Below, in pieces: positions 39,837 through 40,571 of a stretch of 64,000 nt of DNA. The DNA lies in contig CAIYJU010000011.1 of assembly GCA_903926565.1 (NCBI GenBank), positions 28,355 through 92,354 on the forward strand, written 5' to 3'. Numbering within the stretch: the stretch's first letter is position 1; each line of letters starts with the position of its first letter. Source of the DNA: an uncultured Bacteroidales bacterium (GTDB lineage Bacteria; Bacteroidota; Bacteroidia; Bacteroidales; FEN-979). Both the position numbers and the translations under genes were made by a program. The notes below the pieces were generated by a model. It did no database searches. It was not told where the DNA came from and saw nothing but the letters and a program-made list of their open reading frames with translations.

Positions 39837-40148
39837 CAAATATGTGAATTTACGAATACAGGCAATCTGAAAGCCTGATCCTTCGCGTTATAAGCCAATA
39901 ACGCCACATATACTATTGATATCAAGCACATTGCATGTTCATCGTTGAAAAACCGGCATTCGTCGGGTATTAACAACTTCTCATCGACTTTCTTTAAACT
40001 GATTCCAGATAAGCAACTACATTTGCATTACAAATTATTAATTATCAATCGTTTGTTAAATAATTGTTAAATACTCAACGAACTGTAACATTGAATTTGT
40101 TGTTGCGTCAGATGGACACTACAAAAACCAAATAGTAAAACACAAAAA
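39837..40148. other. 312-bp AT-rich intergenic region
   Basis: No gene seen. It holds one TAnnTTTG match, TACATTTG at 40018-40025, that could start transcription of the repeat-protein gene with a leader of about 120 bases. No stable terminator hairpin was recognised after the S9 peptidase gene. Confidence 0.4.
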
Positions 40149-40571
40149 ATGAAAACCACGAATATGATTACAATGAAAACCATATATACGCTTGTTGCTT
40201 TTCTAGGCTTACAATTCAACTCAATCTATGCAACGGCAAATTCCGGAGAGACTCCCACCATGACAAAATATGCTGCAGCCTTCATTTCAGGTGCAATGCT
40301 TACCCCGGCTACACCGCAGGAGGCACTATTCGAAGATTTAACTGAACTGCCCGTGGTGATGCCAGGCGTTTCTGAATTAACCCCATCCATTCCGATGATG
40401 GCAGATTTCAGTGATGGTGCCCCTGATGCAGAAACCAGCACACTCATTCTTGCCCCGGTAACTCCGATTGAGGCAGATTTTGAGGATGGCAACGAAACTT
40501 TAAGCGCTTCACCAACCAAAACGCTGGCCCCGGTAACACCTGCCGACGCCGACTTTGCAGATCAACTTTAA
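40149..40571 (+). CDS. Small exported protein with four copies of an LxPxxPxxADFxD repeat
   Basis: The 140-residue product has a signal peptide (MKTIYTLVAFLGLQFNSIYATA, if started at the Met at 40173; the track start adds eight residues). The mature part contains four related units: LTPATPQEALFED (51-63), LTPSIPMMADFSDG (77-90), LAPVTPIEADFEDG (101-114) and LAPVTPADADFADQ (126-139). The units are acidic and proline-rich and separated by 10-14 residues of Ser/Thr/Glu-rich linker. I do not know a function. No T9SS domain or lipobox. Its stop overlaps that of the convergent SRPBCC gene. Confidence 0.75.
   Translation: MKTTNMITMKTIYTLVAFLGLQFNSIYATANSGETPTMTKYAAAFISGAMLTPATPQEALFEDLTELPVVMPGVSELTPSIPMMADFSDGAPDAETSTLILAPVTPIEADFEDGNETLSASPTKTLAPVTPADADFADQL

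Follow-up and report, generated by a model that had tools for sequence, protein, structure and literature searches.

A repeat-protein family of uncultured Bacteroidales with putative LytTR-read and ECF-sigma-type promoters

Described systems and the locus under study

CpxP and Spy are small periplasmic envelope-stress proteins of enterobacteria that carry short LTxxQ motifs and form alpha-helical cradles. The envelope-stress effectors of Bacteroidota are, to our knowledge, poorly known. The protein described here resembles CpxP and Spy in its presumed role only: it is small and exported, appears to be under envelope-stress control, carries a short repeated motif and lacks an enzymatic signature. 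It differs from them in having another motif and no confidently predicted fold where they have the helical cradle, and shows no sequence relation to them (LTxxQ is absent from the window sequence, and no Pfam match was obtained). The window is the whole 64-kb stretch of Bacteroidales DNA that was analysed.

Three described regulatory arrangements are relevant for comparison. LytTR operators are 9-bp repeats with a 12-bp separation, placed upstream of the promoter and subject to autoregulation (PMC6193735). One promoter type found here has the same layout, with 9-bp direct repeats at 12-bp spacing that are common to the repeat-protein genes and the operon of a LytTR regulator, but the repeats number three where that layout has two, their sequence differs, and the promoters are of the Bacteroidota −7 kind. 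That operon, encoding LiaF (PF22570, PF09922), a His_kinase protein (PF06580) and a LytTR response regulator (PF04397), is akin to the LiaF-LiaRS/LytTR operons of the Toastrack and LiaI-LiaF-TM systems (PMC11237479); repeat proteins are found in none of the described Lia or Psp systems, as far as searched. The other promoter type resembles those of ECF sigma factors, whose mark in Flavobacterium is taken to be a CGT box in the −10 region (PMC9723704). The ECF promoters of motif SM6 in Flavobacterium psychrophilum are tied to type IX secretion genes (PMC9723704), whereas no type IX component was identified among the genes downstream of the corresponding sites here.

The gene that was studied codes a protein in which an N-terminus resembling by eye a type I signal peptide is followed by four units of L-[TA]-P-x-x-P-x-x-A-x-F-x-D (Table 1). 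PxxPxxAxF is present four times, whereas 200,000 shuffled versions of the mature part had it twice at most, which bears out the original prediction of a small secreted protein built from four repeats. That prediction had also held the phenylalanine and the acidic positions to be the most constant. The phenylalanine is indeed invariant but the acidic positions are not: unit 1 carries ALF instead of ADF. Real constancy is confined to P, P, A and F, which a 19-member alignment shows to be invariant in all four units.

Table 1. Coordinates of the repeat-protein gene and its upstream elements in the window, and of phage-borne family members in their own records.
Feature	Position	Strand	Basis or remark
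Direct repeat box A, TTCATCGTT	39938..39946	+	matrix trained without this locus; 11 orthologous loci
Direct repeat box B, TTCGTCGGG, 21 bp after A	39959..39967	+	matrix; 11 orthologous loci
Direct repeat box C, CTCATCGAC, 21 bp after B	39980..39988	+	matrix; 11 orthologous loci
TACATTTG, Bacteroidota housekeeping −7 box (TAnnTTTG)	40018..40025	+	class alignment, matrix, orthologues
TGTAAC, −35-like, downstream putative ECF-sigma-type promoter	40084..40089	+	class I alignment, orthologues
CGTCAGATG, −10-like, 16 nt after TGTAAC	40106..40114	+	consensus CGTCTTATG; orthologues
ORF, secreted four-unit repeat protein	40149..40571	+	140 aa, stop included in coordinates
Putative N-terminal signal peptide, residues ~1–31	40149..40241	+	judged by eye; orthologue dN 0.14–0.17
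Unit 1, LTPATPQEALFED	40299..40337	+	ORF translation, 19-member alignment
Unit 2, LTPSIPMMADFSD	40377..40415	+	ORF translation, 19-member alignment
Unit 3, LAPVTPIEADFED	40449..40487	+	ORF translation, 19-member alignment
Unit 4, LAPVTPADADFAD	40524..40562	+	stop codon 2 residues further on
Phage member L333 (LR756501.1)	82491-82673	−	
Phage member L058	4896-5132		
Phage member L305	3965-4198		

An unnamed family of uncultured lake bacteria

Profile searches of Pfam-A, NCBIfam and PHROGs with the whole protein gave no significant match (best PHROGs E value 0.33), in agreement with the earlier remark that no named family was known, and the searchable literature contains no mention of the motif strings. 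Homologues exist nevertheless. One to seven matches per genome were identified in 36 of the 37 sampled genomes of the uncultured Bacteroidales family to which the window belongs, with five members in the window's own genome; there, a motif-pattern search gave clustered matches only in these five, the remainder being single and near control level. No member was found in 296 other genomes of the phylum, nor in the order sample outside the bacterial family. Weak matches in the class sample and in genomes G051 and G056 were discarded because the repeat proved absent on inspection. There is thus no convincing member beyond this bacterial family in the phylum, order and class samples, phage contigs excepted. 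A scan of named genomes with the single protein confirmed no relative; those present in named records were found with an alignment of a closer subgroup and belong to uncultured Bacteroidales from stratified lakes and cold sites (Lac Pavin, Loclat, Kiruna, Alinen, Chersky). The repeat proteins are an undescribed, unnamed protein family of uncultured lake bacteria.

The 90 distinct sequences of the member set are 76 to 202 aa long (median 122). P-x-x-P-x-x-A-x-F recurs two to six times in each, mostly every 22–26 residues, so that homologues with varying repeat number do exist as envisaged, and the family-wide motif reads [LIF]-[AS]-P-x-T-P-x-E-A-[DTS]-F-x-[DE]. In 76 of the 90 the last recognised phenylalanine is at most four residues away from the C-terminus. 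The window protein conforms to this architecture in its signal peptide, in the number and spacing of its units and in the position of the final one. Four-unit members prefer ATF in unit 1 and ADF in units 3 and 4, which indicates that the units have positional identity and derive from an ancestral repeat array. In a subgroup (L111, L115, L165, L100, L101) unit 1 is immediately preceded by a CxxC motif. One member (L144:8032-8637, in G025:C33) has just two units and an additional folded-looking C-terminal domain; its assignment as TonB-like was dropped as neither Pfam nor PDB supported it.

Selection acts very differently along the protein. Comparison of four orthologous copies of the window locus gave 69–83% identity (dN 0.14–0.24) for the motif columns and 74–81% for the signal peptide, against 21–32% (dN 0.61–1.00) for the linkers; dS is near saturation and the contrast between motif and linker was used alone. 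AlphaFold2 run on a 20-sequence alignment yielded a mean pLDDT of 58 and a pTM of 0.20, with the signal peptide as sole long helix. The mature protein is probably intrinsically disordered, a low-confidence model being no proof of disorder. The conserved signal peptide thus favours the export that had been proposed, and the model together with the fast-evolving linkers favours an unfolded state. The mature sequences are acidic, having a median pI of 4.05 and a net charge of about −0.16 per residue; lysine makes up 1.6% and arginine 0.7% (2.3% together), and most members have no cysteine. None of the 90 carries a lipobox with a cysteine at the cleavage site, or an EF-hand-, dockerin- or RTX-like motif (DxDxDG-like, GGxGxD); the latter result lends no support to the calcium binding that the original prediction had listed for testing. 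A role as a binding protein is plausible in that the motif is conserved beyond composition, but no partner was found.

Members are lone genes at unrelated places in the genomes. The window gene comes after metF, a GGGPS-like gene and a gene for a DPP IV-like S9 peptidase and is followed by an AHSA1-domain gene on the opposite strand. Synteny of this locus extends to roughly a dozen species. Other members adjoin a methyltransferase gene or sit at rimP-nusA-infB, where a diverged group is found in several species (L110, L114, L150, L152, L161). Neighbourhood comparison identified no gene that recurs beside members at different loci; the neighbours that do recur (on the metF-GGGPS-DPP4 side, at rimP-nusA-infB and beside the methyltransferase) were rejected as partner genes since these are orthologous housekeeping loci.

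Two putative promoter types upstream of the window gene

The upstream regions of unlinked members resemble each other. Alignment of 56 of them on TAnnTTTG revealed three boxes, TTCACCGAT, TTCRTCGGG and YCARCCGAA, exactly 21 bp apart and followed by TATATCTTTGC and TTCATCAA (class II promoters). Of 90 upstream regions, 48 have the arrangement CG-21-CG-21-CG; shuffled sequences gave a mean of 0.8 and a maximum of 4. In eight genomes the strict class II pattern has 23 matches and its reversed control none: 20 are directly upstream of members, two are upstream of liaF and one is a relic. The latter (L145:5963-6059, in G016:C93) is an intact promoter with no repeat-protein gene behind it and a truncated methyltransferase gene next; the repeat-protein gene seems to have been deleted. 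Copies of the liaF operon with two of the three 21-bp-spaced boxes in the promoter were found at L262:1513-4153 (G012:C94) and L263 (G017:C118). More generally, of the 24 genomes of the family where liaF was detected, most show boxes B and C with the 21-bp period ahead of the gene, and the position weight matrix scores above 0 in 22 of these 24 upstream regions (99% background quantile, −16.9). The liaF promoter has no clear box A and scores below the member promoters. Since members and the liaF operon have these boxes in common, in the published LytTR layout, class II promoters are probably under LytTR control. No liaF was found in the window's own assembly (94% complete), and for this genome the LytTR link is thus drawn through promoter similarity only.

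The second type (class I) has the consensus TGTAAC-N16-CGTCTTATG. Its 27 members, the window gene and its orthologues included, all have a spacer of exactly 16 nt between GTAAC and CGTC, with one GTCAC and one AGTC as the only departures from these sequences. An exact search for TGTAAC-N14-18-CGTCTTATG in eight genomes gave eight matches, all directly upstream of members, and none for the reversed control. We infer that these are promoters of a putative ECF-sigma type. The window's own genome has no exact match because its −10 diverged. When up to two mismatches were allowed, matches did not exceed the reversed control, so that the case for a wider ECF regulon comes only from recurrence at orthologous genes. 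Loose sites, with diverged spacer, recur at orthologous positions in several genomes upstream of an outer-membrane efflux operon that includes an HlyD-type gene, of an ABC ATPase gene and of an OMP barrel gene; one genome has such a site upstream of an S46 peptidase gene.

The window gene carries both types. Its −7 box follows box C by 29 nt, as in other class II promoters, and a class II matrix built with all class I members left out has its single positive site on either strand of the 64-kb window here (position 39936, score 31.8; next best −4.5). TGTAAC-N16-CGTC spans 40084-40109, the −10 element departing from the consensus after CGTC. Across 11 orthologous upstream regions the intervening sequence drifts, while box B, CG in all three boxes, TTTG in the −7 box and CGTC are kept, as is TGTAAC with one exception.

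A third promoter type was observed in L111, L146, L147, L149, L162 and L165, where an inverted repeat, CGTAAAAATACG (CGTA-N2-5-TACG), lies about 100–130 nt before the start codon and upstream of the −7 box.

Proposed role and phage-borne copies

An export signal, a conserved multivalent motif, a paralogue family and shared promoters are established at the sequence level; control by envelope stress is suggested by analogy, through LiaF and the co-regulated genes, and the binding and protection of an envelope target by the motif is our guess. We consider it probable that the protein is a disordered, multivalent envelope-stress effector under LytTR-read and ECF-sigma-type promoters. The acidic, intrinsically disordered product would be exported to the periplasm or the exterior and display several copies of [LIF]-[AS]-P-x-T-P-x-E-A-[DT]-F-x-[DE] as a binding motif on flexible linkers. 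It would be made on demand: the LytTR regulator from a system of the LiaF-LytS-LytTR type would read the upstream TAnnTTTG promoter with its three 9-bp repeats, an ECF-type sigma factor would read the downstream promoter, and both inputs would converge on the window gene. The envelope target could be a folded receptor or envelope components that have become exposed or damaged; the repeated motif may bind several copies of it and protect or buffer it, a role like that of the unrelated CpxP and Spy. If so, the partner should be findable with a synthetic 13-residue peptide. The DNA by itself offers a complete testable circuit, made up of a defined binding motif, promoters of two types and an operon with a candidate regulator.

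The composition of the proteins (pI about 4, few basic residues) would also suit a polyanion secreted to mop up cations or cationic antimicrobial peptides, its motif having no specific receptor, as would the finding of these promoters at LiaF-type and efflux genes. We regard this as unlikely, for selection keeps P, P, A, F and the leucine, beyond charge, and a pure polyanion has no need of PxxPxxAxF. Similarly small is the probability that we give to a feedback ligand whose motif would attach to LiaF, to the sensor kinase or to an anti-sigma factor and so turn the response off again: members and the LiaF operon do have promoter boxes in common and phage copies precede a membrane protein whose N-terminus is anti-sigma-like by eye, but members show no consistent adjacency to any regulator gene in bacterial genomes and up to seven paralogues per genome seem many for this task.

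A structural coat or matrix protein, the latter proposed in the original prediction, would likewise be secreted, repetitive and present as several paralogues per genome. The proteins are short, however, and mostly devoid of cysteine, and their genes have stress-type promoters instead of forming structural gene clusters. No evidence for a matrix function was obtained, the shared promoters pointing to an envelope-stress response, and we judge this option quite improbable. Repeated units separated by variable linkers are also what a precursor of several proteolytically released signal peptides would look like; given the near absence of lysine and arginine, dibasic sites in just seven of the 90 members and no processing protease or transporter linked to them, such a precursor is very improbable. 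The effector reading stays our preferred one.

Two-unit members with signal peptides were also found in phages: on two IMG/VR contigs (L058/L304 and L305) and in LR756501.1 and LR756503.1, both 735,411-bp phage records. Each is preceded by TGTAAC-N16-NGTCTAA, which is the class I promoter type with an equal spacer. L058 has neighbouring genes in common with the 735-kb phage, which makes them relatives. Their presence hints at an intervention of large phages in the envelope stress of their hosts. It is possible, and we put it forward tentatively, that huge Bacteroidota phages, the 735-kb one among them, took up a member together with its ECF promoter, which would be driven by the host envelope stress that infection induces, and that a hitherto undescribed class of disordered proteins with a multivalent short motif is what two envelope-stress pathways of a single uncultured Bacteroidales family chiefly produce. 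Within a few genes downstream of the phage members lies the small membrane protein mentioned above; its assignment as an anti-sigma factor was rejected, one of three giving a match, a weak one, to DUF5056. The 735-kb phage is described as occurring in Lac Pavin and has a predicted Bacteroidetes host (PMC9875498, PMC7162821). The same lake is the source of several of the bacterial genomes.
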